From the NCBI GenBank assembly GCA_903813345.2, contig CAIIXF020000001.1:61209885-61273884 (forward strand): 64,000 nucleotides of DNA, read 5' to 3'. Shown piece after piece: positions 32,140 through 58,737 of the stretch (position 1 is the first letter of the stretch; the number at the start of each line of letters is the position of its first letter). Under the pieces are notes generated by a model, which worked only from the letters and a program-made list of their open reading frames with translations, did no database searches and was not told where the DNA came from. The stretch comes from Owenia fusiformis. Its lineage: Eukaryota; Annelida; Polychaeta; Sabellida; Oweniidae. A program made the position numbers and the translations under genes.

Positions 32140-32404
32140 ATGGCACCCCCACCAGAGAGGGTGATGTTCCTCATAGGATTTGGATTATCTTGCGCTGCAG
32201 TCGTGTGTAACATTATCGGCTTCTCTAGCCCATTCTGGTTCCAGTCTTACCCCTCTGCCCATAGCACATTCAGGAGTATAGGGCTGTGGCAAGCATGTTT
32301 TCAGAACTTCCAGCATCCAGCCGATTACATTGGGAAGCTTTATACAGGATGTTGGTGGATCTTCCACACTGAATACTGGAATATGCGCGACTGGCTCCTG
32401 CCAC
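32140..32404 (+). CDS. Claudin-like first exon N1 (TM1 + extracellular loop 1)
   Basis: ATG in AAAATGGC context. Short cytoplasmic start (MAPPPERV), TM1 (~residues 9-30, MFLIGFGLSCAAVVCNIIGF), then loop 1 with FWFQSYPSAHS, SIGLWQACF, YTGCWWIF and EYWNMRDWLLP, carrying the claudin-type W/GLW/C/C set. Ends phase 1 at CCAC|GTAAGT. It is 13.9 kb from the middle exon, with the 25-bp and 90-bp arrays and exons N2/N3 in between. N1 joins M as P-WFISVQ without breaking frame. Confidence 0.85.
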
Positions 32405-32769
32405 GTAAGTTCATAAAATTCATTCTGGAATGTCTCATTATTGACAGGTTTTGACCTTGATGGCCATTTTGAAATGTTAACTGTGTATCAGATATTGGGC
32501 CATTTGGGAAGCTCAAACATTTAAACCCAGGATTCATCCTATGTATGCAAAAATTAGAGAGTATATCAATGCCATGTATTAAGTGAGAGCATAAATCCTA
32601 ATAGGACATTTCCTGGAATATTCTTAAAAATAGGGTCATCCTGTTGATGAATAATGTTGTATTGTGCATGTGTTTCAAGTTTAAGAGAAAATTGTTGCAT
32701 TCTAATTTGGCCAGAGGGTTGTGTCTTTTTCAGTTGTATATGTGTGTTGTTTGCTTGGTTGAACATGAG

Positions 32770-35700
32770 TCGCTAATTTTATACATGTGTTATATTTTAC
32801 ATGTGTCTCATGTATTTTATTGTACAAGTGTCTTGTGTGCTGTATTTTACATGTGTCTCATACGTTATATTGTACATGTGTCTTGTGTGCTTTATTTTAC
32901 ATGTGTCTCATATGTTATATTGTACATGTGTCTTGTGTGCTTTATTTTACATGTGTCTCATATGTTATATTGTACATGTGTCTTGTGTGCTGTATTTTAC
33001 ATGTGTCTCATATGTTATATTGTACATGTGTCTCATATATATATTGTACATGTGCATGTGTTTCATATGTTGTATCGTACATGGGTCTTGTGTGTTTTAT
33101 TGTATATGTTTCTAATATGTTATATCGTACATGTGTCTCTTGTGTTGTATTGTACATGTGTCTATTTTATTGTACATATGTCTCATGTGTTGTATTGCAC
33201 ATGTGTTTTATTGTACATGTGTCTCATTTATTGTTTTGTATTGTACATGTGTCTCTGAGTTGTATCATACATATGTTGTATTGTATATTTTGCACCATGT
33301 GTTGCATGCTTAGCCTAAGTGTCTTGTGTGTGCATGTTCTATTGCACATGTGTCTAATGTGGTGTATTGTACATTTGTCTTGTGTGTTGTATTGTACATG
33401 TGTCTCATGTCTTGTATAGTACAAAACTTGTGTTTTGTATTGTATGTGTGTCCCTTGTTTTGTGTTGAACAGATGTTTGGTGTGTTGAGTTGTACTTGTG
33501 TCTTTTATTGTAAAGATGTCTCAATTGTTGTTTTGTATGTTTTATTGTACAGATATTTTGTTTATTGTAATGAATATGTGATAAGTATGTTGTTTTGTAC
33601 ATATGTGTCCCATGTGATGTATTGTACAAATGTTTGGTGTGTTGTGCCTCATGTGTTGTATTGTACATGTGTCTCATGTGTTGAATTGTACAAAACGTGT
33701 GTTTTGTATTGTATGTATGTTTTGTATTTTATTTTACAAATGTTTGGTGTGTTGTGTGTGCTGTATTGTACACGAGTCTTATATGTAGTATTGTACATGC
33801 ATCTCATATATTGTATTGTATGCATGTGTCTCATGTGTTGTATTGTAAATGTGGCTTGTGAGGCTGTACTGTACATGAGTCTTATGCTGTATTGTACATG
33901 TGTATCTCATGTTGTATTGTACATGTGTCTTGTGTGTTGTATTGTACATGTGTCTTGTGTGCTGTACTGTACATGAGTCTTATGTTGCATTGTACATGTG
34001 CCTGATATGTTGTATTGTACATTTTATCCCATGTGTTATATTGTACATGTTCCTCATATGTTGTATTGTATGCATGTGTCTCATGTGTTGTATTGTAAAT
34101 GTGGCTTGTGAGGCTGTACTGTACATGAGTCTTATGCTGTATTGTACATGTGTATCTCATGTTGTATTGTACATGTGTCTTGTGTGTTGTATTGTACATG
34201 TGTCTTGTGTGCTGTACTGTACATGAGTCTTATGTTGTATTGTACATGTGCCTGATATGTTGTATTGTACATTTTATCTCATGTGTTATATTTTACATGT
34301 TCCTCATATGTTGTATTGTATGTATGTGTCTCATGTGTTATATTGTACATGTGTCTTGTGTGCTGTACTGTCCATGAGTCTTATGTTGTATTGTACATGT
34401 GTATCTCATGTTGTATTGTACATGTGTCTTGTGTGTTTTATTGTACATGTGTCTTGTGTGCTGTGCTGTACATGAGTCTTATGTTGTATTGTACATGTGT
34501 ATCTCATGTTGTATTGAATGCATGTGTCTCATGTGTTGTATTGTACATGTGTCTTGTGTGCTGTACTGTACATGAGTCTTATGTTGTATTGTACATGTGC
34601 CTGATATGTTGTATTGTACATTGTGTCTTGTGTGTGGTATTGTACATGTGTCCCATATGATGTATTGTACATGTGTCCCAGCTGTTTTATTGTACATGTG
34701 TATCTTATGTTGTACTGTACACGTGTCTCATGTGTCATATTATACATGTGTCTCATGTGCTGTATTGGACATGTGTCTCATGTGTACGTATTGTACATTT
34801 GTCTTATATGATGTATTGTACATCTGTCTCAGCTGTTGTTTTGTACATGTGTATCTTATGTTGTACTGTACATGTGGCTCATGTGTCATATTATACATGT
34901 GTCTCATGTGCTGTATTGGATATGTGTCTCATGTGTTGTATTGTACATGTGTTTTATTGCACATGTGCCGCATGCCTTGTGTGTTAAATTGTATATGTGT
35001 CTCTTGTGTTACATTGTACATGTGCCTCATATGTTGTTTTATTCATGTGTCTTGTGTGTTGTATTGTATTGTGTTGTATTGTATAGAGGTCTTATGTTCT
35101 TTAATTGTGTCCCGTACGTTCTATTGTACAGAAGTCTCATATATATGTGTTGTCTTCTTTTGCTGTACAGATATCTTGTATATTGTATTGTACATGTGTC
35201 TCATATGTTGTATTGTACACATGTCTCATTTGTTGTATTTTACATGTATCTCATGTGCTGTATTGTACATTTGTCTTGTATGTGAATTGCACATGTGCCT
35301 CATGTGTTATATTGTACATGTGTTTTATTGTACATGTGTTGCATGTGTTGTATGTGTCTAGTGTGTTAATTGTATGTGTGTCTCTTGTGTTACATAGTAC
35401 ATGTGCATCACATGTTGTCTTGTTCATGTGTCTTGTGTGCTGTGTGTTGTATTGTAATTGTGTCTCTTGTTCTGTTCAGAAGTCTCATGTGTCGTCTTGT
35501 TTTACTGTTCAGATATCTTGTTCATTGTATCATACATGTGTCTTGTGTGTTTTATTGTATATGTGTCTTTTGTGTTACATAGTACATGTGTTTTATTGTT
35601 CATGTGTTACATGTAACATATTGTACATATGTCCCATGTGTTAAATTACATAAGTGTCTCTTGTGTTATATAGTACATGTGTCTCATATGTTTTATTGTA

Positions 35701-36620
35701 TATCTGTTTTATAATATGTGTCTCATATGTTGTATTGTACATGTCCCTCGTGTGTTGTATTGTAATTGTGTCATACATATTGTATTGTACATGTTTTTTA
35801 TAATATATGTCTCATATGTTGTATTGTACATGTGCCTCGTGTGTTGTATTGTACATGTCTCTCACATGTTGTATTGTACATGTGTTTTATAAAATGCTTC
35901 TCAAATGTTGTATTGTACATGTGCCTCGTGTGTTGCATTGTACATGTGTCTCACATGTTGTATTGTACATGTGTTTTATAATATGCGTCTCAAATGTTGT
36001 ATTGTACATGTCCCTCGTGTGTTGCATTGTACACGTGTCTTACATGTTGTATTGTACATGTGTTTTATAATATATGTCTCAAATGTTGTATTGCACATTT
36101 GCCTCGTATGTTGTATTACTTGTGTCTCATGTGTTATATTGTACATGTGTTGCATGTATTGTGTTGTACATGTGTCTTGTGTATTGTATTGTATGTGTGT
36201 CTTTTGTGTTAGATTGAACATGTGTCTCATCATGTGTTGTATTGTACATATATATCTCGTCTTTAATTATACATGTTTGTTGTATTGTAAAAAGGTCTTG
36301 TGTTTGTACTGTCATTGTGTATGGTGTGTTATATTGTACAAAAGCCTCGGGTGTCGTACAGATATCTCGTACGTTGTATTGTACATGTGTCTCATGTGCC
36401 ATATTGTACATGTGTCTCATTTGTTAGATTGTAGATGTGATTCATGTGTTATATTGTATATAAGCCTTGTATGTTTTATTGCACATGTATGTTGTGTAAT
36501 GTTTTGTGCAGGTGTTAATGTTTTGTACAAGTGCATTTCATTGTACATGTTCTTCATTTGTTGTCTGTTAGTGTCTTGAGTCGTTTATGTGTGTCTTGTG
36601 ATGTATTGTATTGCACCTCA
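32770..36620. repeat. 3.9-kb minisatellite, ~25-bp unit with ~250-bp higher-order repeats
   Basis: More than 100 copies of TTGTACATGTGTCTCATGTG + TTGTA and variants (CTTGTGTG, CATATGTT, GAGTCTTATG). Larger duplications are visible: 33811-34060 is repeated almost exactly at 34061-34310, and partly again to ~34620. The unit is not a multiple of 3 and lacks stops, so long frames open on both strands (up to 254 codons), all translating to the same CIVHVSHMLYCT-like string. These are repeat translations, not genes. The array begins ~370 bp after exon N1. Confidence 0.95.
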
Positions 36621-37899
36621 TTATATCGTTCAATTGCATTATGTGTTGGGTGGATTGTGTCTCATAAGTGTATTGTGCGTTTGGTTGTGCATTTGTCTCG
36701 TATAAATTAACCCGTGACAAACCACATGAACCAGTCTAACAACTGATGCGCCGGCTTGTCGGCATATCTCATCTTTAGTTTGTTCTTTTTGTTTTATCAT
36801 ATTCCCCTCTGTTAACATATATGTCTTGTGCATATGTATCCTTGTGCATATGTATCCTTTCGTTTTGGATTGTCACCGTTTCTCGTGTATCTTGGATTGA
36901 TTTTTGAGCGTGTTTGAATGTGCATGTGTTCGTGCTTTGATTTCCCGGGGTTGGATATTACGCTGGTCTGATTTTCATCATTTGTCGTTTTGCCTTGCAC
37001 ATGTGTAAGATTCATACTTGTGAAGTTTGCGACGGGCGCTTGATAGTTTGTGTCTAGTACCCCATTATTATGATGGCATTTGGGCATATGTTAGAAGTTC
37101 AAACGCTTTGAACGTCAAGTCTCAATAAATATAAAAGTTAAGAGGTAAATAGCGCTAGTAAAGCTAGCGTCATGGACTTACATCTCTTTAATAGACTTTT
37201 TCCTTATACCTTTACAACCAGTAAGTTTATATTTCAAAGGGGAGACCTAATCCTCAGGGGGACGTAATTCTAAACCTGCGACGTATATATGTACAAGTTC
37301 TCTCAGAAACGCATCATGGAGGAGTTTTAACCTCTCTACTTCTGGTGACAAAAAGCACATCAAACGCATTTACTTTAGGCTAATCAATCAGTTTGACGTG
37401 TCGAAAAAAGAATATTGTAACAGTTTGGCCTATTTTTGTGGATATACGTGGTAGCGTGGCTAATAATAGGCCCACTGTTTAGTAAACGGTGTTTACTTGG
37501 TGAGTTACACGGCACACGTTAAATGTGCGATTGTCCCTAAAGAATTAAACAGACATATACAATTAAATATAAAATATAAAACAGTATATTGTGGCGTTTA
37601 TAAGCCCAAATAAAGATGTACATTAAATTTCAAGTCTAATTGTAAGAGTGTTACGATTTTAATATCTCTCTCAAAACTCACAACTCAAAAGTCCATATAA
37701 GCTAATATTTATCACTAATAACACAATATCCAGAGTCCATATAAGCTAATAATAATCACTAATAACACAATATCCAGAGTCCATATAAATTGAAGCTGAT
37801 GATCAATATATCACTGTTGTATCTCCAATATTAAAAGTTCATATATGTTGTAATACTTGTACGTCTTGTATTGTACTTGTAACTTGAACCTGAAATAGT
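36621..37899. other. Intron sequence between two tandem arrays
   Basis: No exon recognised. Small repeats only: GTTCAAACGCTTTGAAC palindrome near 37096, GCGCTAGTAAAGCTAGCG near 37151, and a ~55-bp duplication (TATCCAGAGTCCATATAA) near 37730-37790. Confidence 0.4.
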
Positions 37900-39085
37900 A
37901 ATCTCCTGGATCCTCTTCTATGTAGTGTAATATGATTCAAGTTTGATGATGTGAAATCATCTAAGTCAACTATCAGCTCGGTAAATGGCTATCTCCTGGA
38001 TCCTCTTCTCTGGGTTGTAGTGTAATTCAACTTTGAGGATGTAAAATCATCTAAGTCAAACTATTGCTCCGTAAACGTAAATTTTCTGGATCCTCTTCTA
38101 TGTAGTGTAGTATAATTCAGCTTTGATAATGTGAAATCATCAAGTCGACTATCGGCTCAGTAAATGGCAATCTCCTGGATCCTCTTGTGCTGTAGTATAA
38201 TTCAACTTTGATTATGTGAAATAATCTAAGTCAAACTATTGGCTCTGTAAATGGATATCTCCTGGATCCTCCTCTCTGTGTTGTAGTATAGTTCAACTTT
38301 GATTATGTGAAATAATCTAAGTCAAACTATCAAGTCTGGAAACGACTATCTCCTGGATCTTCCTCAATATGTTGAAGTATAATTCAACTTTGATTATGTG
38401 AAATAATCTAAGTCAAACTATTGGCTCTGTAATCCTGGATCCTCCTCTCAGTTGTAGTATAATTCAACTTTGATTATGTGAAATAATCTAAGTCAAACTA
38501 TCAAGTCTGGAAACGACTATCTCCTGGATCCTCCTCAATGTGTTGTAGTATAGTTCAACTTTGATTATGTGAAATAATCCAAGTTAAACTATCAGCTCTG
38601 TGAACGGTTATCACCAGGATCCTCCTCAATGTAGATGTATATTCTAACTTCAATGACACAAGATCATCAAAGTCAAAATATCTCGCTGGATAATCTGCTA
38701 AGTCCTGGAACGTCCTCTCTGTAGATGTATATTCTAACTTCAATAATCCAAGTTAAACTATCAGCTCTGTGAACGGTTATCACCAGGATCCTCCTCAATG
38801 TAGATGTATATTCTAACTTCAATGACACAAGATCATCAAAGTCAAAATATCTCGCTGGATAATCTGCTAAGTCCTGGAACGTCCTCTCTGTAGATGTATA
38901 TTCTAACTTCAATGACCAAAAATCATCAAAGTCAAAATATCTCGTTGAATAATCTGCTAAGTCCTGGAACGTCCTCTCTGTAGATGTATATTCTAACTTC
39001 AATGACCAAAAATCATCAAAGTCAAAATATCTCGTTGAATAAACTGCTAAGTTCCAGAACCTCTTCTCTGTAGATGTATAAGTCA
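37900..39085. repeat. ~90-bp tandem array (CTCCTGGATCCTC / CTAAGTC units)
   Basis: About twelve units. The left part has ATCTCCTGGATCCTC and AAATAATCTAAGTCAAACTA. The right part (38640-39085) has GTAGATGTATATTCTAACTT and ATCATCAAAGTCAAAATATC. On the minus strand the right part is open for 137 codons and repeats a ~30-residue string (FDFDDFWSLKLEYTSTERTF..); the left part shows an equivalent string (FDLDYFT) broken by a stop in most units. So coding is doubtful. Confidence 0.85.
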
Positions 39086-39960
39086 AACTATCACAATCTT
39101 CAAACTACCAAGTCCAAGGACATCTAAAACACGGCATCAACTGTTAAGTCTATGTAGCTTGCTTTCTTCACAATTAAATAATAAGGATACCTACAAATAT
39201 AGCATGCACACAACGACATATGCAAAAATATAACATGTGAAAATATTTGACCTCTAAAATGACTAAGTTCATTTAATGTTAAGTGATACTGATATTAAAA
39301 TATTCTAAGTTCAATATTTCTCTTTCCAAAAACAACAAAGTCCAAAATAATGTTTCATCAAATATTGACTAAGTTAATTTCATGCTAAGTTATACTGATG
39401 TTAAAATATTCTAAGTTAAATATTTCTATCTCCAAAAACAACAAAGTCCAAAATAATGTTTCACCAAATACTGACTAAGTCCAATAATGTTGTAAATCGT
39501 CTAAGTTCCTTGATGCTCAAAACAGCTTAAGTTTTTCAAACACAAGTTATGTCAGCATTTCCTCTCAGTCTATGAAGGCTGGACAATACGTCTAATGATT
39601 TGCGCTGGGGATAGCTTCACCCTGTCGAAGTTTTGTCCAGTCTTGTAGATCTCCCTTACTTCCAGTGCGGTAAATAAACTAAGTTCCTCTCACTTAGCTA
39701 CATCAAAGTTTCCCAAAAATCCAAGTTCCAAAATAAACCTAAGTTTCGCACACTTAGTTTCCTCAATCTGCCCTTGTATACTGCAAACGTATAGCTTGGC
39801 TCATCAGATGTATTCTACTAAGGTACAGCTTCTATCTTCATGTGTATACTGCAAACGTATAGCTTCAACTCCACAAAATCGACTAAGTTCTATAAAACTT
39901 AGAAGATTTTAGCTGTTTCCCGAAATTCCGCTCTAGAGGTCCTTCCTCGACAACATCTGG
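39086..39960. repeat. Irregular CTAAGT(T/C)-rich tract
   Basis: CTAAGTT or CTAAGTC (ACTTAG on the minus strand) recurs every 20-60 bases and continues the motif of the adjacent 90-bp array. Two larger duplications: ~115 bp (39290-39400 vs 39395-39480) and TGTATACTGCAAACGTATAG (39776 and 39842). Confidence 0.65.
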
Positions 39961-39966
39961 CATCGC

Positions 39967-40015
39967 ACTGACGAGCCTTCAACAACGAGATACTTATATA
40001 GGCCCGATGACGTCA
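39967..40015 (-). promoter_or_regulatory. Core promoter on the minus strand: CRE + TATA + initiator
   Basis: Read on the minus strand: TGACGTCA (40015-40008), TATATAAG (40000-39993), then TCAGT (39971-39967). The A of TCAGT lies 31 bases downstream of the first T of the TATA box, the textbook spacing. A transcript would run left through the CTAAGT-rich tract and the 90-bp array, antisense to the claudin-like locus. Start-site use is predicted, not shown. Confidence 0.6.
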
Positions 40016-40772
40016 TCGATTTTCGTACAAGATTTCAACTGTGAATTACAGCTTATTTACGCCATATTTCGCTTCAATATTGATCATACAGCAAGATTAT
40101 AATATTGACTCAAGAAATATAACAGTAATTAATCACTATTTAGTCTAATTTTACTTCGATTCCATCGAATCAAAACCAGGAAGTAAAATAATACAGGTGT
40201 CATGTTAGACTACCGATCAACTTCAAATTAGACTGCCAGATAAGACTGCCCGATCAACATAAACAAAATCGTGATCAAATAAATAAAACATGTGAACTAT
40301 TTCACCTCTGTAAGTACAACCTAAGTGCTGCAAATGATACTACATTTATAAATCTTAATAATCTCAATGGGAAATTACTTTCCAAGTGTAATAATTACCT
40401 AATGTACAAAAATACAGCACTTTATCAAAAATCAAAAATTTTACATTTTAAAATTTCGTTACAATATAATAGATCATGTTTCTGGAGTTGTCGTGAATTG
40501 CTAAAAACGAATCATTGCATTGTGCCACATTTCTTTGATTGTACGCAGGATTAGGCTAGGTGTGAAAGTTGGGTTGTTGGATTGTGCTTCTAGGTCTAAC
40601 AAAAACTATATTATATATGTTGAATTGAACCTGTGTGAATAGGTTATCAGAGTTTGTTTCTGGAAATGATAAGTGCTCTTAAACTTTGAATAAAATGGGG
40701 GATAAAGGTCCATGCGCGATTTAATGATATCATTCACCGATGGAGATCGAGACCATCGATTTAAAATAGATT

Positions 40773-41093
40773 AGATGCAAGTAGAAATAATCTTGATTTA
40801 CCCCATTAAAAATTCAGCCAAACTGATGCCTTATTTGAAATCTACATGTAAAGTTTTGAAAAGAGTTTATCAACTTTGAAAATTTAATTTTCTTTGAAAA
40901 TGTGATTTCTAGGTCGGGGAGATTCCCATAGACTCCATGTTGTAAAATCACAAAAAGTGAAAACCTTTACTTTTGTTGGGCGGATAATATTTTCTTTTAC
41001 TAACTGGATGATATTTTTTATCTGTACAACTATCATATACATAAGGGTTATATGAAAAGTGAATCGTTAAAACTGATACCCTGCCATGTTATT
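40773..41093 (-). mobile_element. ~400-bp MITE family, copy 3 (inverted, truncated)
   Basis: Starts AGATGCAAGTAGAAAT and ends TACCCTGCCATGTTATT, the complement of copies at 10630 and 12660. It lacks ~50 bp at the far end, including the CCAGTTTCGCCACC block. Confidence 0.75.
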
Positions 41094-41573
41094 GAGTTGG
41101 ATTGTCCTCACCTGGAAATGTTTCATTTTTGCATTGTGCTTTGATCATTGAACCTTGAAAAGTGTTTTATACAAAGTATACCAATAAGTTTAAGCATTTC
41201 TGAACTCAAATGCTTTTCTCTTGGAGGCTAGATAAGCAAAATGTACTGCTTGGTTGTCAATGGGCTCTATAATTGATATAAGTGTACACGTACATTGTGA
41301 TATTGTGAGTCCAAGGTATATTGTAGGTTGTCCTGAAACATCAGTTTTCAACAGCTAATTTGGAATTGAATTATTCTTTTGACTATTAATTGAGTCGTAT
41401 TTGTCATTTGTGGCTCAATTGATGATAAACATCATCGCTTTGGTTGTTCCCTATCGAATGCCAATGGGTTTCGTATTACATCGAATCCCCGGGGATTTTT
41501 ACCTGTACAGGTGAGTTTACCTGGAATTGGATGTGGCGTGTCATGACCTAAATTTCAAAAAAGTAAATTCAAG
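41094..41573. other. Upstream flank of first exon N2
   Basis: No repeat or exon recognised. Likely 5' UTR/promoter for N2 if that exon has its own start. Confidence 0.3.
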
Positions 41574-41850
41574 ATGGTGTCTAAAAAGTTGGAAAAGATT
41601 TACACAATTTGGGGCAAAATAGGCCTATTCTGTGGCCTATTTGGTGTAGTTCTTACCATTGTTGCATTTGTCAGTGGACATTGGTTTGAGGCAGAAAAGG
41701 ATTCAGACTCTCATTTCAAGCGATTAGGCCTTTGGGAGGCTTGTTTTGATGGATACCATCACCCAGCAAATTATGTGGGAAAAGTTCATCGAGGATGCTG
41801 GTGGATTCTTCACGTTGAATACTGGTACATCAGAAGTTGGCTCTTACCTT
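41574..41850 (+). CDS. Claudin-like first exon N2 (TM1 + extracellular loop 1)
   Basis: ATG in CAAGATGG context. Basic start (MVSKKLEKIY), TM1 (about residues 15-35, GLFCGLFGVVLTIVAFVSG), then HWFEAEKDSDSHF, LGLWEACFDGYHHP, HRGCWWIL and EYWYIRSWLLP. Same W/GLW/C/C framework as N1 and N3, with different exposed residues. Ends phase 1 at TTACCTT|GTAAGT; joining M gives S-WFISVQ. It is 9.2 kb after N1 and 3.7 kb before N3. Confidence 0.85.
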
Positions 41851-42189
41851 GTAAGTTCAATTATATTTTCAAATAGATTTTCAATAACTGTGTCAGAATT
41901 ATTTGTTTTCTGTCTTTCAGATAACTGATAAAAGTTTGTTGGACATTGTTTTTGTGAATTTTTGTGGTTTCAGTTGAGATTTGGCACTCAGGATTAGAGA
42001 ATAACTAATATTGTATGTTTCCGTTCCATCATTTTCTATGTTATCATATCATACAGGTCCGCCAGAAGACTTTTCAAAGGGATTTGTGTTGTGGCGACTT
42101 TGGTTGGTTGGTTGGTTATATCCTTTTGCATTGATGGGCTGTATCAGTGACACTCCAGCTTTAGGGCAATGTTTATATATGCAAAGTGT

Positions 42190-42290
42190 CATCAGTACTG
42201 GGAGCTAGGGGGTCTGGGTCTGGATCATGCCCCCAGAAAATTTTTGGAATTCAGACCATTTCCGATGCCCCGTCTGGTCCATTCTGAACA
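42190..42290. mobile_element. Transposon fragment (ATGCCCCCAGAAAATTTT family)
   Basis: Contains GGGGGTCTGGGTCTGGATCA, ATGCCCCCAGAAAATTTTTG and CCATTCTGAACATATCT. The same string order occurs at 59750-59820 (GGGGGTATGCCCCCAGAAAA .. GCATTCTGAACATATCT), so both are pieces of one dispersed family. Confidence 0.6.
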
Positions 42291-42433
42291 TATCTGTTAT
42301 TCTCATCCTCTCATCATCATCATCATCATCAGTATTAAGACTAGTTGGTTACTCCAGTTATTAGTCTCATCTGTTCAAACATAGTTTAGATCTGAGCTTT
42401 AGTACAACTTTAAGGACAAAAAAGGGGGGAAAC

Positions 42434-42590
42434 CTATAGCCAGTAGTGTTGATACACCCAGTGTCTGTCCAGAGCTGTCTTGAAGACATCCAGATTTTCT
42501 GCCTGTGCCACTTCTGTAGGGAGACTGTTCCAATCATTAATGATGCGTTGACTGAATGTGTTTTTCCTTACATCTAGTCTGGACCTAGGA
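42434..42590 (-). pseudogene. LINE (non-LTR retrotransposon) reverse-transcriptase C-terminal fragment
   Basis: The minus-strand translation contains RSRLDVRKNTFSQRIIN, DWNSLPTEVAQAENLDVF and KTALDRHWVYQHYW followed by TAG. This is the well-known C-terminal end of LINE polymerase proteins (R.F.FS.R..N.WN.LP..V). It is open over ~50 codons with no upstream polymerase, so it is a 5'-truncated copy. An ATC microsatellite lies just beyond its 3' side at 42308-42330. Intronic between N2 and N3. Confidence 0.8.
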
Positions 42591-42840
42591 TATCAGATTG
42601 TGTTATTCTCTTGATAATCTTTTTTTCAAGTAGATTTTGACCAATGATTATGTCACCTTATTCAAAAGGTTTTTATTCATGTCATATTATTCAAGTGGAA
42701 TTGTATGTATCACAACACTGTGAGAGTTATGTTCATGTCACATTATTATTCCAAAGCTGATGTTCATGTCATTTTATTCATTCGAATATGACTGTATTCA
42801 TGCCTTCTATAAACTGTGAACAAAGTCAACATTTCACCCA

Positions 42841-43016
42841 GGGTATATTCGCCAACAATACCCCTGATAATACGAGTAATATGTGACGTCATAAATGCGG
42901 GCCATAGTAATGACGGACCATAATGAATATTCGAAACATTTTGGTGAATTTTCGTGTTCGAATCTTAATATAGACCTCAGAGTACTATGTAGGTGTAATA
43001 TCGGCGAATATACCCC
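42841..43016. mobile_element. Small TIR element
   Basis: GGGTATATTCGCC at the left and GGCGAATATACCC at the right form a 13-bp perfect inverted repeat enclosing ~175 bp. A second partial inverted pair (GGCTAGGCA / TGCCTAGCC) follows at 43021-43096. Confidence 0.65.
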
Positions 43017-43149
43017 TTAGGGCTAGGCATTAAAGCTTTCGCATCCCTCACTCCCTTCGGCCATTCAGGTTACAGAAAACGTTTGTGCCTAGCCATGCGG
43101 AGTGTATTAAATGATATTACCCCTGCTCTTTGGTCTATATTTCTTTCGT

Positions 43150-44420
43150 TCTTGGTTTTGTTAGTTCATGTCACATTATTCAAAGAATGATGGTCATGTC
43201 ATATTATTTCAAAAAGTGTTGATCGGGTCATAATATTCAAAGGTTATGGGTTATGTCACATTATTGAAAAGGTTTTGTCTGTCACATTATTTAATGGATG
43301 TTGTTGTGCTGTCATATTCAAAGGATATTGCATTGCTCATGTGTTTTCACATCCAAACCATATTGTTCATTGTCACATTATTCAAAGGATCTAGTTCACC
43401 ATGTCATATTATTAAAAACAATGTTGATTTGGTCACATTAAAGAGGGAATCAGATCTACCGAGCAGCCTAACAAAAGATTGTTTCAATTTTCGAAAATAT
43501 CTGGCTTATGTCATTCTTTGTCACATCTTTTATATTTCAGGAAAACTTTAAAATTTTTACTATAATGTATTATTTTTCTTTAAGAATTGTCGCCATTCTT
43601 ATTATTTGGGAGAATTTAAACATTTTTCACCCATTTTTGCACATTGCAATCCATAACTTCACCAATTTATAACATATCATGAATATTTTGGGAGATATTG
43701 TATTTGCAATTGTAAGGAATAGATTGGTAGATCAATTGTACATGTTGCTTGTAATTTTGTCACCCCTCTGATTCTGTCTCTAATAATCAAAGCCTCTGGT
43801 TTATGTCACATTATTTAAAATATATTGTTTCTGTCTAGTATTCAACAGATATTTTTCATGTCACATTATTCTATTGATATTGTTCATGTGTTGTCACATT
43901 ATTCAAACAATATTGTTCATTGTCACATTGTTCAAATGCTATGATTCATGTCACATTACTCAAAGTATATTTTCCATGTCACATTACTAGTGATAGTGTT
44001 GTTACATTATTCTAACATATTGTTCATTGTCTCATTAGTCAGAGGATATTTTTCTCAAGATTTTTTATTCGGTCACATTATCAAAAGGATATGGCTCATG
44101 TCACATTATTGAAAGAATATTGTTTGTGTCATATTATTGGAAATTAGTGATGGCCATGCATGTCACATTATTTAAAGGACATTGTTTCTGTCATGTTATT
44201 TAAAGAATATTGTTTGTGTCATATTGTAGGAAAATGTTGATTTGGTCATATTATTCAAATGGCTGTGATGGTGATGCATGTCACATTATTTAAAGGATGT
44301 GGTTTCTGTCATGTTATTTAAAGGATATTGTTCATGTCACATTATTCAAACAATGTTGTTCATATGTCACATTATTCAAATGATATTGGTCGTATCATAT
44401 TTTTTCCAAGAATGCTGTTC
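43150..44420. repeat. ~28-bp minisatellite (TGTCACATTATTCAAA)
   Basis: About 35 degenerate copies of a unit like TGTCACATTATTCAAAGGAT + ATTGTTCA, with a non-repetitive gap at ~43540-43800. Scattered single units start at about 42690. It lies in the intron between N2 and N3. Confidence 0.9.
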
Positions 44421-45567
44421 CATTTCACAATGGGTAATAGTTCAAATACATGGTTTTATTATTAATAGACATAATTCAACCAATAAAGGTCTCAAAATAA
44501 ATAACAACTTTTGAATTGGTCATCTTACTGTGTTACGGTTGAGATTTCTGCCGCAGTGATATGTTGGAGACTAGCAGTGTCATCGGATATTGGGAAAAGA
44601 GTAGATAAGTGCATCAAAACCAAAATATCAAGAATGAACAAAAATATTGTCCTGTTGAATGACTCACAGCTTAAGGTGTAAAAAGGTTGCCAAATAGAAT
44701 TCAAATTGTTAGAAACTTATTCTAATATGAACATTTGTATATTTGAAATGAGGCAAGTACTTGGTGTCATTTGAATTTGTTTAGTAACATGACTCTAGAT
44801 TGTGGATTTTGAATGTGGAAGTGTCATAAAATGAAACCTGGGCCTTAAAAAATTATGTGGTTGCTCACATCATCAGTTAGGAATTTGAACTACTTTGTTG
44901 AGGGGTAGTGAGATCATAACCTGGCATGACCTGATCATTTGAAAAACAATAATTTATGTTTATCCAGTTATTTTAACTAAATTCATTATGGTAATGTAAA
45001 TCGAAATAAAATAAGTCACATACATAAATCAACCAGAAACTAAGATTATTTTGTTTTTAACTTGATATTGATAATTGTCTCCCAATATTGTTTCATCATG
45101 ATTTCTCCTTAAGTTTATAACTAAATAAAATTCAAAATAAACAAGAGATAGGAGAACTCAACCGTTAATCAATCATGAAAAACTAAAAGTTTTAGGAAAC
45201 AAGTTATTGATTAATGAATTGTTATCATTTTGTAAACATGACTCAAATGTGATTCACTTATTACTAAAGAAATGCTATCACCCCTTCAGGTGAAAATATG
45301 AACCATTCCATAATGCTCTTCTTTTGAGCGCATTTACTCCTTACCTAAATAGTTATATCATTTTCTATCACATAAGCAACTTGTCATTTGTTTATTATAT
45401 TTCTACCAGTTTTTAATTAGTCAATTCAATACCTTTATTTAGCACAAGTATCTAGTATTTGTATTAAGAAATTGATTCTAGAAATCAAAAATAGATTATT
45501 TCGGGGCGGCTGGTTTGCAATTGGAACAGCATACCTGTTCAATTTTAATTCAAAACATCTAGGCAAG
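44421..45567. other. Upstream flank of first exon N3
   Basis: AT-rich, no exon or repeat recognised. The reading frame of N3 stays open upstream to ~45472, but the ATG at 45568 (GCAAGATGGCC) is the better start because it puts TM1 at the N-terminus as in N1 and N2. Confidence 0.35.
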
Positions 45568-45823
45568 ATGGCCACCAGCGCCGTCTTTCTAGCAGGAATC
45601 GTTTGCAGCTTTTGTTCATTACTGTGTTGTATAATAGCGTTTTGCTCACCGTATTGGTTTCAATCATGGCCAAGAGTACACAGTGAATTCAAAAGAATTG
45701 GACTTTGGGAGGCTTGTTTTGCCGGATTTATTCACCCAAGAGATGAATTAGGAAAAGCCTATCATGGCTGTTGGTGGACCTTCTCAAAAGAATACTGGAA
45801 TATCAGGGATTGGTTACTTCCCC
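45568..45823 (+). CDS. Claudin-like first exon N3 (TM1 + extracellular loop 1)
   Basis: Starts MATSAVFLAG; TM1 about residues 6-28 (IVCSFCSLLCCIIAFC), then PYWFQSWPRVHSEF, IGLWEACFAGFIHP, YHGCWWTF and EYWNIRDWLLP. The W/GLW/C/C framework is intact. Ends phase 1 at CCCC|GTGAGT; joins M as P-WFISVQ. It is only 0.5 kb from M, so N3-M is the nearest pair. Confidence 0.88.
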
Positions 45824-46345
45824 GTGAGTAAAGGAGGAAATAAGGATCAGTTGTACTCGTGGTTTATGATTGTTTGAGATGAGGATCTTTAGTTTTGAGG
45901 AGATTGTTGTTGAATTTTCACCTGGAGGGAAAAACAAAATGGCTGCCATTTGACCTACTTTCAATGAAAACTCACCTGTTGATTAGAAACATTCAATTTG
46001 TTTATTTCATTTTGATATTAAAAATAATAGAGGATTCAAAATGTTATAATATATCAAGTTAAGAATGTAAATCATCTTCATATTACTTTCAAAAACTTAT
46101 GTAAATGAATTTGATGTGTTCACTGGAATAACTTTTTTTGAACCAGGAAATGATGTTGAAACCAGCAATTTTTCATTCCAAATTTCAAAAAATGTCAGAC
46201 TAGAGGATATAGTCAAAATTAAATGTACTTCAAATTTTTGAAATATTTCATACTTCTTCAAATACAGAAAACACATCATATTCACTATTTTCTACTTTTG
46301 TTTCTAACTCAAACTTATAATTTTCTTCCCGTTTGTGTCTTTCAG

Positions 46346-46498
46346 CCTGGTTTATCTCCGTACAAGTGATGGTGACAGGAACTTTGATCTGCCAACTGGT
46401 CGGAGCAATATTATTAGTAGCGTATTTCCTCAGATGTTGCCGACCACAGACGGAAGCTTTTGCTCTGTTTGTTTCCGCTGGGCTCCAGTTTGTATGTG
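46346..46498 (+). CDS. Claudin-like common middle exon M (TM2 and start of TM3)
   Basis: 153 bases, phase 1 to phase 1, acceptor GTGTCTTTCAG and donor TGTG|GTGAGT. Encodes WFISVQVMVTGTLICQLVGA and ILLVAYF (TM2), a short cytoplasmic turn RCCRPQTE, then AFALFVSAGLQFVC, which starts TM3. The remainder of TM3 comes from whichever C exon follows. It is the only exon of this type I can find, although three N and three C exons exist. Confidence 0.85.
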
Positions 46499-48715
46499 GT
46501 GAGTGAGGAATAAGTATACATCAATTTTACAGTTCAGAAATGCAGCAGCTTGTGGGGGTTTGCGTCATCTTCACATGAAAGTTATGATCATTGAGTTTCC
46601 AAAAAATATTATCAGCTCAAAACAATTTTCTATTTATTGGAATCAACACCTGTCGAGATCAGTAGATCTATCTGTGATATTTTCAAATCGTTTGAAGATT
46701 GACACAAACCCTCCCCCCATGGCTTCATACCCAAAAAGTATACTCTCAATAGTATAAGATAGAGGTAAGGCTGGCTTTGTTACCTACAGGGGCTATATCT
46801 TAAAAACTGAATGTATGACTCAGAATAAGAGTTTTTTCAGAAATAATGCATGGCTTTTTGAGATATGGCCTCTTACAGTAGCATTGGAACTTTTGAAAAA
46901 GCAATCAAAGCAACTATGGAATGATTACTTTCAGTTAATACCATCGCCTTTGGCAATATGTATGTGAGAGGTTTGTTGTTGGCTGAGAACTAGCAATAGT
47001 TGTGAAAGTCAATGGCAAATTTCTAATACTGAAATTGCGATTTGCTTTTTCAAATTGTTCATTTTCTTATTTGATAAACATTGCCAAATATCCCATCCTT
47101 CCATCAATCCCACACCTATTAGGTAAGTTAGTTTTGTTTTGCATCGAAATATTATACCTGGATATCATAAGTCATCCAAATGTTTGTCAGGTAAAGGCAT
47201 GATTGTGTGAGTGAGATATAGTGAGCTTATATTCCAACAACTTGTTTTTGGAACTTTTAAATTAAGTTGAAAATTAACATTTATTCAACAGTTCAAGCAT
47301 CGTCTAAGTTGATGTTGAAATATAAGTGAATTTTTGAAAGTGTCTTGGATGAATGAAATGACCAAATGTTTGTTGAAAAATGGTCAATTACTTCATTCAT
47401 AGGAGTGAATGTATGCGAGGTGAATGAGGACCAATTATTACTCCCGTCTTTTTGGAAAAAATATTTTATTTCAACTCTGTTGCTCTTTATTTCCCTGCTT
47501 TATTTTCCTTTGCTGTTTTCTCTCCTTCTGTCACCCTTTAGTTAAGTTCCTTCATATTTAAGCATTCTATTTCTCATCATTTAGTTAAGTTCCTTGCTTT
47601 ATTTAACCCTTCCTTGATAAGTGCTTTAGTTATAAGATAATATTGTCAACAATATTCCTTGGAATCAACAATAACATTCAATTTAATTTTCATTGAAACA
47701 ATTTCATTTTTGACATAAGTTGTTTTACTGTTACTTTTTAAAACATTTAAACGTAGCGCATCATTTCTTATATTTCACATTCAGTTACAGTCTCTAGAGA
47801 TCTATCACTTATGTTTTGTTTCCCGTGTGTTTATTTTGCATGGGTTTGACTCCCAGTCTCTACTTCTATTCTTTACTAACAGTCTGTTTACTATACTTGT
47901 CATAAAAACAGAAGTGCATTGTGGGTTTTGCGGATGTTTTTGGCGCGACGGTTTAGACAGGTATTAGGTGAGTTGATGACCAAAGTAGGCTAGACACTTC
48001 TGTTGATAACTGAAAAATGGAAATGCTAAACTGGGAGATCCTATTCCAACCAATTTACTCAATGCATAACAATTTTGATGTTTACTTTCATGATATTAAA
48101 TTATTCAAAAGAGCCTATTGAGGATTTTTTGCATTAAAGTTAGGCTCTTTTCTTTAATTTAGTATCTTTATTCAGTGTAAACTTTTGACCTGTTTTTAAT
48201 GAAATATAAACACTCCGAGTGAAATGACTCGAGAATCATCCAGTTATCTTAAGAAAGTAGAAGCCTCATTGGTCAATGAAATCAGTTAATTCATTAATTC
48301 ACAAATTGTAATTAAGAAACTCATGCTAAATGCTATATGTTAAGATCATGAGATTTGTTAATATAGAATGTATTGTGATACTTTAAAAGATAAAAATTTA
48401 GATAACTAGTACTGTTAATTAAACGTAATACATAATTCATGATTCAAGGAGCATTTGTACAGATCTTAAGTGAAATTGACTTACGTTCGAAGGATACAAT
48501 GTTTGAGTTTGTCATCATTCTTCTTTGTGAGTGGTCTAAATGGTCCAAAAGTGTTGGAAAATTAATTACAAGAATAGCCAAATGTGTAAACAGTTAAATC
48601 AAAAATACCTTGCTGGCAGGATTCATTAGATCTGACTTAACAGAGGCCTGAGATCTGTATAATATTCCTTGAATTCATTCTTGTCCATCAGCCTAAATGT
48701 GTTCATTGTTTTCAG
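46499..48715. other. Intron between M and C1
   Basis: No second copy of exon M and no further N exon recognised. T-rich tract near 47450-47600; nothing else. Confidence 0.5.
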
Positions 48716-48948
48716 CTTTTCTGATGGGAGTATCTGTGCTGGTGTTTGGTGTTATGGCAAAGGAGGACAGAACATGGATGCCCCGACCTGAACTGAACTA
48801 TATGTCCTGGAGCTATGGACTTGCTGTGTTATCAGCCTTCTTTGCATTCTTCTCGGGGCTGGCATTGGCAGTACAAGGAATGATAGTGAAAGAGAGAGCT
48901 CTTGAGAAGGAGGGTCATGAAATGGCACCTCTGCCACCCAAGATCTAA
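48716..48948 (+). CDS. Claudin-like last exon C1 (TM3 end, loop 2, TM4, short tail)
   Basis: Acceptor CATTGTTTTCAG. Encodes FLMGVSVLVFGVMA (end of TM3), loop 2 KEDRTWMPRPELNYMSW, TM4 SYGLAVLSAFFAFFSGLALA, and a ~25-residue charged tail ending LPPKI. AATAAA at 49903-49908 would give a ~1-kb 3' UTR. Confidence 0.88.
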
Positions 48949-51900
48949 TATTTCCGTCATCTATTGCTTATAAACAATTTAGCTTTTGTAACATTCCATT
49001 TTTCATATAACAAGACATTCCTAATGTTGAAGTGAACTGTGTCTACTTGCTTGTAATTTATATCAATTTGGTTATTTCAAACATTTGAAAAAGACAGGAT
49101 TTGACATTGAAACATTCCTTTTAAACGCAGGCAAATTATGCGCCAATAGGAGATCCCATTTCTCAAGATGGACAAAAAAGATTACTATGAAATGGAAACA
49201 AGTTGTATAAAGCAAAACACGCTTGCAGGACTTGATTCAAAGATTAGCTGTCATTTGTAAATAACATATACAAGAGTATTTTTATGGCAAAGTTATACAG
49301 TAATTTTTAACTTCACACATTCTCTGATTAGTCCGGGAATATAAATTCTAGTAGAACGCTCACAATCATAGCTGATTGGTGGCTATGTATATATACTCTT
49401 CTTTTTTATATTACAATGATGTATATACTCTGGTGAAGATTAGTTTTATAACATTAAATTATAGCATTTTACAATTCAATTAGAAGAGTTGATTGAAGAT
49501 ATTTTCTCAGAAAGAAAATTAGTATCTGATAAAAGAAATTTAAAATAGATTTGTGACAATGTGTGATATCTCAATCTACTTAGGGAGTCCTGTCATTTCA
49601 GAGCACATTTTCATGTACTGCAAATATTGATAGAAACAGTCTTGTATAATTTTTATCAGAAATTGAAATAATTCTAGCTTATTGTACCAACATAGTATCC
49701 AGAAGAGATAAATATTTTTATTCAACTCCTCAATTTGTAATTCCAACTATACGATGTACATTCCTGGTTTTATACAAAACATTTTATGAATCATGAATCA
49801 AAAATTCAAGAATGTGAGGCCATGAAGACCAATGATACGAGAGATCACTTGAACTCCCATATTAACCTCATACGTGTATAACTTAACTCTGTATACAATT
49901 TGAATAAACAAAAGATTTGTAAAAAACATTGTCTTGCTTTATGTGTCAATAAATGTCACATTTGGAATTGAATTTTAGGTTTTTAGGACAACAGAAGCAG
50001 AAGTATGCATTTATGGATAAATTTAATTGATTTGTAAAATGGCTAGCCATCAGTAGAATAGTACTAAAATAGTTGCATCATTATTGAAGTAAGCCTTCTA
50101 AATGGTTATGTAATTCTAATGATTGATGTAAGCCGTTACAAATGAATTCAGTTTTTCTCTGACCAAGGTGAGTATTAGTTAAGTTATTATTAGCAATATA
50201 TAGTTAAGGATGCCTCCCCAACCTGCTTTCCCAGCTGCTGCTGCTGCAAATTTTCTACACTTAATTTTCTTGAAATATTCAGTTATGTCGTATTTGATAG
50301 TGTTAAAAGTAAATGAGTTTAAAGTAAAGTTGCGACTTCTAATTTAAAATATTTTGAGACGTATGAAGAATTTGAATAATATTTATTTTAGAAACAAGAT
50401 TTTTTGTAACTATCGTATAAATAATATGAAAACACTTATTTGATACATTTTTCAAATACTTCAATTTTTATTAAAAATTTCATTTATAAACATAAAATTA
50501 CTTCTAAAACCACTTTCTTGTAAGTCTATAAAGCGTGGAAACACTTATCTTGTGTATTTTGTTCATTCAAGTGATGCATAGTTTATACTCCTGGAGTATT
50601 GACAGATTTGCTACTTTCATTAACTGGAGGGAATGTTAGTTATTTAGTGAGATTTTTAGACCTCGATTTCATGGGAAAATATCAAAATTTCTTCGTTTGA
50701 TTATTCTAATAAATGAGAGGAAAAGAAGATATCTCATGTCCTGGACTATTACCTTGGGGCTATTTTAGAATTTATTTTACAAAAAAACATAATTGGAGAA
50801 CTAAATTGTTGAGGTTAGAAAGTCTGGTGTTCGGTCACCAAAACTTCCTTTAGTTCACATTTTTGGTACTAAAAAGTTGATCATGTGTAGTTTTGAGTCT
50901 TATCATTTGAAGCAGCAACTGGGAAAGCTGTGGACCATGCAGTATTTCATTTTGCTTTTGAATAGGTAAGTTCCACTTTCATTCCTTGCATTGTTATTTG
51001 TATGTGTGTACCGTGGGGTGATGGGTTAAGTTCACATTCCAAGAAGAGACGTAAATCTTCAAAAATCATCCCATTGTTTATCTATCAATCCTAATTTTTG
51101 GGATTAAGAATCCAATATCACTGTTCCACACTTGGATGACTCTTAAACTGCAGTTAATATCATTCAAGATAGTGGCCAAAATTCTTCGTTTTTGATAAAA
51201 AAAAAGACTTCGGCTTGACTAAGTTAACTAGCTGCAATCGAAGATTTATGGATAATGAAAGAATTTTGGCCACCTTATGGAATGATGCTAACTGCAGTTA
51301 GAGTCATCGAACCGTGGAACATTTTAATTGAGATTTATGGTGGGACATCCTCTTTTCAAACTTGTAGACTACAAAATTTACGGTAAAAACCTCGAACTGT
51401 TGATCAGCAGAAAATAAGTATGATAGTAATAGTATGATGAGAGCAAGAAATGTTCAGCCTAATTTTTTTCAAAACTTGCCTCTATTTTTAACCTTATAAT
51501 GAGTATTATGGGATAATCACTGAACTTTAATGACAAATGTGGATTGACCCCTTCACTCACCCATGGTTTCATAATATTCATATTACATTTTACTTAAGTT
51601 CGTTTATTTTATACATGTTACAGGATCATATAAACATCATGCTTCTTTGAGAGCCAAAAGATTCAGACACATTTTAGATTAGATTATACTTGAATCATTG
51701 AATGACTTATAAACCTAGTTCATATAGTTCATGCATTAATCATCTAGAAGTCTTCAGATTTTAAGCAATATTGGTTACCACGGCAATGAATTATGGGTCT
51801 TGCACGTGCAACCAGGACATGTAAATTCATATAGCTGAGAGTCTCTCATGTCTAAAATGACAAGTACATGTAGTTATGATTTTTTCTATTCATTGATCTT

Positions 51901-51952
51901 ATGTCCAACGTTATGAATTGATTGTTCTTAACAATAGTTCTTTAATTTCCAG
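48949..51952. other. C1 3' UTR and intron before C2
   Basis: Candidate polyadenylation signal at 49903. No first or middle exon recognised; AT-rich unique sequence. Confidence 0.45.
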
Positions 51953-52281
51953 CCCTTGTTATGCTGATTGCTTGTATCGTGTTCGGTGTTGGAGCTAACG
52001 ACCGAGCCTGGATGCCTCGGCCAGACCAGAACTACTTCAGCTGGAGCTTCGGGTTTTACATCATTTCCATGTTTTTCTCCGTCTTCGCTGGGCCTCCCAT
52101 TTTGATGCATGCCATGCAAGTACGGAGAGATGCCCCCAAGGAACGACCCGAACTTTACGCCATGGAACAATTTGGTTATTCACAGACTGGCAGTATGCCT
52201 TCAGTGGCTGGTACTGCCATGTCTAAGGTTTCCAAGGCATCTACTCCATACCCAATGGGCCCAAATATGAACAGATACTAA
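51953..52281 (+). CDS. Claudin-like last exon C2 (TM3 end, loop 2, TM4, long tail)
   Basis: Acceptor TTTAATTTCCAG. Encodes LVMLIACIVFGVGA, loop 2 NDRAWMPRPDQNYFSWSFG, TM4 FYIISMFFSVFAGPPILMHA, and a ~56-residue tail rich in Ser/Thr/Met/Pro (SMPSVAGTAMSKVSKASTPY) ending NMNRY. AATAAA at 53058-53063. Confidence 0.88.
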
Positions 52282-52818
52282 ACTATTTGGAGAAAGAACT
52301 GTTCTATTCGATCATTCCAATCTCCTTTCAGCTTATATATGGAGATCTATAACTTGGAAGTATCTTTTATTCCAGTGCATATCATTCAAAATTATTCAGT
52401 TTAAGAACAGCATGTTTTTCTTCATGTATCCATATTGTGACAATGTTTATAAAAAAACAACTAGACATTTCATTTTCCTGAATTATTAATGTTTGTTTGT
52501 TTATCGGAATGTCATTTTGTCATTAGAAATTCCAACAATATTCTAGCCTGTAATTTGTAAATATTTCAGTTTATGATTTCCTAAAATATACTTGCCCTGT
52601 CTGTATAGCTTGTTTTTCAAAAGCTTTAGAGCTGTATATAATCATTTAATATGTAACCATTCCATGAAATCGTTTCAGGATGGACTAATTGGTGACAATG
52701 CATTAGAACATCATTTAAAGCATTGTCATTCATGATTTCATTTAGTAATACCATGTCTGATTGAGATTTTAAATACTATTTCTAATAACAATTCGACTGT
52801 AGCTTCTGTAGTTCCAAA

Positions 52819-52895
52819 GAGGGGGGATACCCAGAATTCATATATGAACATCTAGAGCTTCGTAGTTCATCTATGAATTCTGGAGTATGCCCTCG
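52819..52895. repeat. Hairpin MITE, family copy 2
   Basis: AGAGGGGGGATACCCAGAAT.. faces ..ATGAATTCTGGAGTATGCCC. Related to 20148-20264. Lies in the 3' UTR region of C2. Confidence 0.7.
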
Positions 52896-53352
52896 TCTTA
52901 GTTATCATTTAAATTCACACTGATTGTATGAGTTTTTGAGTTCTGTACTTAAACATTCCCAGTTTTAAAATCCATCAAATGATGATTATAATATTTTATA
53001 TTCTTACAAAGTGTTCTTAGCAGATGTAGTTAGACATTTTTATACCAATCATGTATAAATAAAATATTTTATTAAAAACCATATTTTCAATGACTTTCTT
53101 CGTTGTTGTCTTCTACGTGCACAAATAAAACTGGTGTGAGTTGAAACAAAATGTAAGTTCTGATCTGAATGTATCAAGCCATGAAGATGGCGGTATCATT
53201 AGCATTAGGTCCAAAGAAAGGGACAAGGGGATAGAGACCATTGCTGATGCCATATACAATTATCTATTAGTATATTATCATGTCAATATATTTTGTAAAC
53301 AAAAAAAAATATTCCCAACTTTCATGCATGTTTTGCTGTTCTGGTATTTCAG

Positions 53353-53639
53353 GTGGTCTATTGGCGATTTCTGTGATTGTCTTCGCAACAATGTGCAAAG
53401 ATGACCGCACGTGGATGCCAAGGCCAGAATACAATTATCCGTCTTGGTCATTTGGTTTTGCTGTCATTAGTGGGTTCTTCTCAATATTTGGTGGGATCTG
53501 TCTGCTGATTTGTGGGTTTATAGTCGTATATGGACCTCCCGGGTACCCTCTTGGAGAGAAAGAGGGCGTAACGAAGACACAATCCCACCAAATGATCCCG
53601 ACTCATAAATCACAGATGCAGCCACCTCCAGGACCATAG
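53353..53639 (+). CDS. Claudin-like last exon C3 (TM3 end, loop 2, TM4, proline-rich tail)
   Basis: Acceptor TCTGGTATTTCAG. Encodes GLLAISVIVFATMC, loop 2 KDDRTWMPRPEYNYPSWSFG, TM4 FAVISGFFSIFGGICLLICG, and a ~40-residue tail with PPGYPLGEKEG and the end QMQPPPGP. AATAAA at 54266-54271. Loop 2 is closest to C1 by eye. Confidence 0.88.
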
Positions 53640-58033: not shown

Positions 58034-58714
58034 TTAGGCATCGGCAGCCTCAGACTCTATCCAAGGTACGTCTTTATCCTCTATGCTGGAGTATGGATTG
58101 TTCCCACTGGGTTTCCCATTACGTCCATTTTCCTGAGGTTGCAGTTTTTCCTCTTCCTCTGACGTCAGGCGTTCCTGATCTTCAGCTTTCTTCTGGTTGC
58201 GTTTAACACAGATATACGCCAAGAGGAACACAACTACAAAATAGCCAATGACCAGAAGGCAAACGATAAGGCTAATGATATGAATGAGCGGGATCGTGAA
58301 CAACTCTTCACAGACAACGTGCTCAATTTGCTCGCCAGCATCGCTCCGGTAACTAGCAACCACGCACACGTTGTATGGCGTGTCATGATTCAGATGCATG
58401 ATCCAATACGAGTTATTCGTTGGCCCTAGTGGGTCACTATTGAAATTCAACTTGCCAGTTCGGTACTTCACTTTGAAATGATTTATATGCTGTTGTGTAA
58501 TATTTTTTGAATAGGTCATATTCCAACCGACGTGAATGGCGTCAGTTTTACTCGTCAAATGGACAACTTTCATAGAAAACACCTCATTTTCAAGTTCTTC
58601 AATGTTTGAGTTATTGGAAGGTGCCATATTGACCATGGGGACTTCTGTCCCAGTGGTGTCCTGCCCCATAACGAGGCTCGCCACCAGATGGAGTCCCAGC
58701 AGATGCACCAACAT
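58034..58714 (-). CDS. Small type I membrane protein with one fibronectin type III domain
   Basis: 226 residues in one coding exon on the minus strand. Start chosen at the Met giving a signal peptide (MLVHLLGLHLVASLVMG); an acceptor (TCTACTTGCAG, exon from 58737) places an intron in the 5' UTR, so the open frame further upstream is not used. Residues ~47-141 form an FN3 domain (AIHVGWNMT, FKVKYRTG, TPYNVCVVASYRS). TM ~143-167 (SLIVCLLVIGYFVVVFLLAY). The ~59-residue cytoplasmic tail is Glu-rich, with NNPYSSIEDKDVPW and the end ESEAADA. Four N-glycosylation sequons (NNS, NMT, NIT, NNS) and two extracellular Cys. The layout recalls short FN3 receptors or FNDC-type proteins; I cannot name the family. 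Confidence 0.8.
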   Translation of the reverse strand: MLVHLLGLHLVASLVMGQDTTGTEVPMVNMAPSNNSNIEELENEVFSMKVVHLTSKTDAIHVGWNMTYSKNITQQHINHFKVKYRTGKLNFNSDPLGPTNNSYWIMHLNHDTPYNVCVVASYRSDAGEQIEHVVCEELFTIPLIHIISLIVCLLVIGYFVVVFLLAYICVKRNQKKAEDQERLTSEEEEKLQPQENGRNGKPSGNNPYSSIEDKDVPWIESEAADA

Positions 58715-58737
58715 TGTAACAGCCAGTTGACGCCTAT

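Follow-up and report, generated by a model that had tools for sequence, protein, structure and literature searches.

Exon organization of the locus

The stretch of DNA analyzed here (the window, 64,000 nucleotides) comes from the forward strand of contig CAIIXF020000001.1 of the Owenia fusiformis assembly GCA_903813345.2, positions 61,209,885 to 61,273,884, and contains a putative claudin-superfamily locus composed of three start exons (N1, N2 and N3), a single middle exon (M) and three end exons (C1, C2 and C3) (Table 1). This seven-exon anatomy is real. An earlier reading of the letters (the original prediction) had placed the exons on one strand in the order N1-N2-N3-M-C1-C2-C3, and this order was borne out to the base: the three N donors, both ends of M, the three C starts, the three ATGs and the three stops are all found in the sequence, and every N end, both M ends and every C start lie in phase 1. 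Phases and splice sites are compatible for all nine N-M-C combinations, each of which is open and gives a predicted product of 213–252 amino acids, and the introns between the nearest exons measure 522 bases (N3-M) and 2217 bases (M-C1).

Table 1. Exons of the locus, in positions of the window (TM, transmembrane region)
Feature	Position	Strand	Details
N1, start exon: ATG, TM1, loop 1 with W..GLW..C..C	32140..32404	+	265 bases; donor GTAAGT; phase 1 end
N2, start exon, most divergent N	41574..41850	+	277 bases; donor GTAAGT; phase 1 end
N3, start exon	45568..45823	+	256 bases; donor GTGAGT; phase 1 end
M, common middle exon: TM2, cytoplasmic loop, first part of TM3	46346..46498	+	153 nucleotides; phase 1-1
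C1, end exon to TAA: remainder of TM3, followed by loop 2, TM4 and a short tail	48716..48948	+	phase 1 start
C2, end exon to TAA: most divergent C, with the longest tail	51953..52281	+	phase 1 start
C3, end exon to TAG: proline-rich tail	53353..53639	+	phase 1 start

The splice sites of the locus are far better than background. All four donors have the form GTRAGT, which is found at only 38 of the 4049 GTs on the + strand of the window, and the four acceptors fall in a pyrimidine-rich class that holds 232 of 3099 AGs. The good start context claimed for each N exon was likewise confirmed, with a purine at -3 and G at +4 in all three, a combination matched by ∼9% of + strand ATGs. Degenerate 25/50-base units, repeated in tandem over a long stretch (32784-36458), occupy much of the intron between N1 and N2 and yield several spurious hydrophobic open frames.

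A tblastn search of the window for missed copies of M, which had been suggested together with the exon model, was run under three composition settings and recovered, besides M, only a weakly matching stretch at 44326-44418 (E-value 0.001 without composition correction, 0.41 or 0.021 with it). This stretch falls in tandem repeats (44072-44429), and the exon that could be drawn around it (44324-44488) has an A at acceptor position -3 and the donor AAG/GTCTCA; it was rejected as a second M exon on account of its repeat origin and poor splice sites. When candidate phase-1 internal exons bounded by AG and GT (362 on the + strand and 176 on the - strand) were scored, M reached 260, the 44324-44488 candidate 58 and the next, unrelated one 40. 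Across the whole genome (498,259,871 bases in 525 contigs) the M query gave one match, M itself, with one candidate scored; the remote M exons of other genes described below lie beneath the reach of this search. No further N, M or C exon was found within 40 kb flanks on either side, where the sole other match below 0.05 (E 0.011) was to a stretch at 47.4 kb that also appears in the window search. Two weak matches of N3 in the window, at 23883-23821 (E 0.008, 21 amino acids antisense) and at 47420-47343 (E 0.05), were set aside as offering no usable exon.

Protein family and predicted topology

All nine splices pass the cut-off of Pfam PF13903 (Claudin_2, 29.1), with scores of 52.9–70.1 bits over nearly the full profile. 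The cut-off of PF00822 (Claudin/PMP22, 26.7) is reached by none of the nine; at listing thresholds of E up to 10 for three splices and up to 0.01 for the other six, only N2-M-C1 is listed, at 17.3 bits. The cut-off of PF10242 (LHFPL, 25.2) is weakly exceeded by two forms that end in C2, those starting with N2 (28.2) and N3 (27.4), values far lower than the Claudin_2 scores of the same two forms (52.9 and 56.8). Because PF00822 is reached by none and PF10242 is weakly passed by two C2 forms, claudin-superfamily is the safe name for the predicted products, rather than claudin in the strict sense. A C-terminal YV-type PDZ ligand is a feature of claudins sensu stricto, and such an end is absent from all three tails, which terminate in PPKI, MNRY and PPGP. 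The motif W..GLW..C..C in loop 1, the claudin signature, is present in all three N exons. A search of PDB sequences with N3-M-C1 gave no match up to E 10. We infer a junction function for the gene product from its family.

Hydropathy profiles of three of the nine splices reveal regions for TM1 to TM4, with the hydropathy window splitting TM2, and likewise TM4 of C2, into two overlapping peaks. The original assignment of N, M and C to the parts of the claudin topology holds overall, except that the M/C junction sits inside TM3 and not after it, so that the second half of TM3 belongs to each C exon along with loop 2, TM4 and the tail. The net charge of loop 1 is 0, -1 and +1 across the N exons, which gives no strong separation.

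Relatives of the exons in the genome

In genome searches with N3 and with C3, complete N and C exons of the type seen here were found only at this locus. Each search gave four matches, one of them non-local: with N3 the matches were the three N exons and a weak, distant N relative on contig C10 (E 0.006), and with C3 they were the three C exons and a piece on contig C4. The latter (C4:1724228-1724386) is a 152-base, 97.4% identical copy of the interior of C3 (window 53365-53516), and it was rejected as a gene, being interior sequence only, with neither acceptor nor stop. Beside it lies sequence ∼80% identical to window 59283-59458, and the piece was perhaps carried there by a mobile element. 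With the Claudin_2 profile, 22 candidates were scored in the genome and 17 stretches matched at an E-value of 1 or less. Five of these belong to the locus, C2 not being one of them; one is the C4 piece, and the other 11 lie elsewhere. The sole PF00822 match in the genome search, C9:1956899-1957081, is presumably the last exon of a calcium-channel gamma/TARP gene, and has Claudin_2 matches nearby at 1916780, 1964855 and 1987132.

The three N exons share 43–58% identity with one another (N1/N3 58%, N1/N2 43%, N2/N3 44%) and 17–31% with six other N exons of the genome, and the three C exons share 43–56% (C1/C3 56%, C1/C2 43%, C2/C3 48%) and 14–33% with five other C exons. In trees with the same six and five exons, N1–N3 cluster with a support of 0.977 and C1–C3 with 0.941, and in the C tree one other exon (C9 26.76 Mb) joins C1–C3 at 0.758. 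These supports are local values from short alignments whose exon ends were trimmed by eye, and the trees omitted another C9 exon, the C4 fragment and the M exons.

Other genes of the family in this genome share the division into N, M and C; they differ from the locus in that one copy of each exon was found. The gene on contig C10 (10.06 Mb) is a plain N-M-C gene in which M begins W-Y after a phase-1 acceptor and is followed by a GTAAGT donor, and the M/C intron is in phase 1, as at the locus; for its N donor there are three candidate sites that differ in phase, one of them being phase 1. The gene on contig C7 (25.07 Mb) has N, M (beginning W-F) and C in order, with approximate splice positions, and at C9:29.07 Mb the profile matches to N, M and C also follow in order. 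From the exon order and the trees at the locus, together with the single N-M-C organization of these other genes, it is probable that in an ancestral three-exon N-M-C gene the first exon and the last exon were multiplied independently while M stayed single.

Between the duplicated copies, the nonsynonymous divergence (dN) is 0.41–0.80, and the synonymous divergence (dS) could be computed for two of the six pairs (2.09 and 2.65) but not for the other four, these values being so high that they are lower bounds only. Judged by this divergence, the duplicated N and C exons are old and maintained. They are also very probably used, since they are so old and yet still open.

Gene model and alternative explanations

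The arrangement is probably that of a gene with alternative first and alternative last exons, and we consider it likely, from the anatomy and the relationships of its exons, that the locus is one claudin-superfamily gene with exchangeable first and last exons around a single M. The order and the trees suggest that the first exon of an ordinary N-M-C gene was duplicated twice upstream of M and the last exon twice downstream. Transcription would start at N1, N2 or N3; the phase-1 donor of the chosen N would be joined to the sole acceptor of a constitutive M, and M would then be spliced to C1, C2 or C3, which the sites and frames suggest to be competing alternative last exons with their own stops. 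The product would be a four-TM protein in which loop 1 could be selected separately from loop 2 and the cytoplasmic tail, in up to nine forms. If claudin-10 is taken as a guide, extracellular contact or permeability is probably what exon choice adjusts, with the tail adjusting anchoring.

Several observations weigh against this model. The argument that each C exon has its own stop and a downstream AATAAA stands for the stops; the AATAAA part is little informative because the signal is so common in AT-rich DNA, at ∼1 per kb in the window and within 1000 bases of 55% of sampled positions, and the sites downstream of the C exons (nearest about 955, 777 and 467 bases past the stops of C1, C2 and C3) are no commoner than background. 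Upstream of the N exons no common promoter word was found, with one shared 9-mer (control mean 1.67) and no 10-mer, and the intron flanks share words only up to 8 bases, a count made without a control. The saturation of dS is a further weakness. Finally, acceptor-like sites lie within 300 bases upstream of N1 (four) and N3 (five), which would allow transcription from one promoter farther upstream, with one or more 5' untranslated exons and N1–N3 picked by mutually exclusive splicing. We regard such an arrangement as unlikely: no such site precedes N2, acceptor-like sites are common (the 232 of 3099 AGs cited above were counted under a slightly stricter pyrimidine rule), and every N exon has its own ATG in good context. 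None of the N exons has an obvious need for an upstream exon.

A somewhat unlikely alternative, suggested by the divergence of the exons, is that pairing is fixed and the locus encodes three set isoforms that have M in common; N2 might be joined to C2, for instance, while C1 and C3 would be the partners of N1 and N3. Such a locus may descend from duplicates of the entire gene, possibly nested, that lost their separate M exons and came to use a single one. N2 and C2 are both outliers in their trees, and the N and C identities run parallel. However, agreement of topology among three copies has a one-in-three chance, N1 and N3 group with a support of only 0.483, and in the alignment used for dN/dS the C identities are 0.39, 0.53 and 0.37, which is less parallel. 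Tandem whole-gene copies would moreover give a repeated N-M-C, and a separate gene could not have survived losing its M before sharing started. The matched divergence of N2 and C2 nevertheless hints at preferred partners. That one main isoform such as N3-M-C1 accounts for the locus, with the remaining N and C exons seldom used or decaying, seems quite improbable; N3, M and C1 do adjoin across the shortest introns given above, but the six N and C exons all keep open frames, conserved motifs and good splice sites despite saturated or near-saturated synonymous sites, which is unlike decay. It is highly improbable that three or more ordinary genes with missed M exons, or an assembly error, underlie the pattern: the weak M-like stretch between N2 and N3 is set against its place in tandem repeats with poor splice sites, the single genome-wide match of M and the 62.2 Mb length of the contig.

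The fuller reading of the exchangeable-exon model is a doubly variable, protocadherin-like claudin, in which cells would choose loop 1 and loop 2 with the tail independently, up to nine junction proteins would serve as a combinatorial code of contact or permeability, 5' and 3' exons would have duplicated separately and the core exon would fit every partner. This is possible, if doubtful on balance.

Comparison with known systems

The original prediction knew of no claudin locus built in this way. As worded this calls for a qualification, as CLDN10 is known to have alternative first exons and CLDN18 alternative promoters. What was not found described is a further set of last exons: a search of an open-access library revealed no claudin gene that also has several homologous last exons, nor one with variable exons flanking one core exon. 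According to the passage on CLDN10 (PMC6862131), the alternative first exons 1a and 1b carry TM1 and the first extracellular segment on a common body and alter charge selectivity. The N exons resemble these in being first exons for TM1 and loop 1, whereas CLDN10 has two main first exons and that passage (PMC6862131) contains no counterpart of three homologous last exons. For CLDN18, passages in PMC11178514 describe isoforms 18.1 and 18.2 arising from alternative promoters in lung and stomach, which is similar in its alternative starts and differs in that those passages present two forms that vary on the 5' side only.

In clustered protocadherins and chelicerate sDscam, as described in PMC4835542, tandem 5' variable exons are joined to constant exons through promoter choice and splicing. 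The comparison with protocadherins made originally can be kept only as a loose one: those systems have many more copies, belong to an unrelated family and vary at the 5' end, whereas the present locus varies at both ends and has small numbers of exons.

Should the pairings be used, exon choice on either side of a common core would contribute, besides gene copies, to the diversity of claudins in this animal, and the contributions of loop 1, loop 2 and the tail to junction behaviour would be directly testable. The locus is also a clear case of exon-level rather than gene-level duplication in a tetraspan family. The matched divergence of N2 and C2 leads to a simple prediction, that of preferred N2-C2 pairing versus free combination.

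Other features of the window

A scan for transfer RNA genes in the window gave none. Two equal arrays of a 183-base repeat, both scoring 1339, lie at 1915-2807 and 6147-7039 in opposite orientation; pieces at 1749-1808 and 7146-7205 match as well, which suggests a large inverted repeat. An open frame of 178 amino acids on the + strand (11769-12302) resembles what we take to be an AbfB-type domain. Downstream of the locus, an open frame of 281 amino acids on the - strand (58037-58879) has a likely single TM and a stretch that is presumably fibronectin-III-like.

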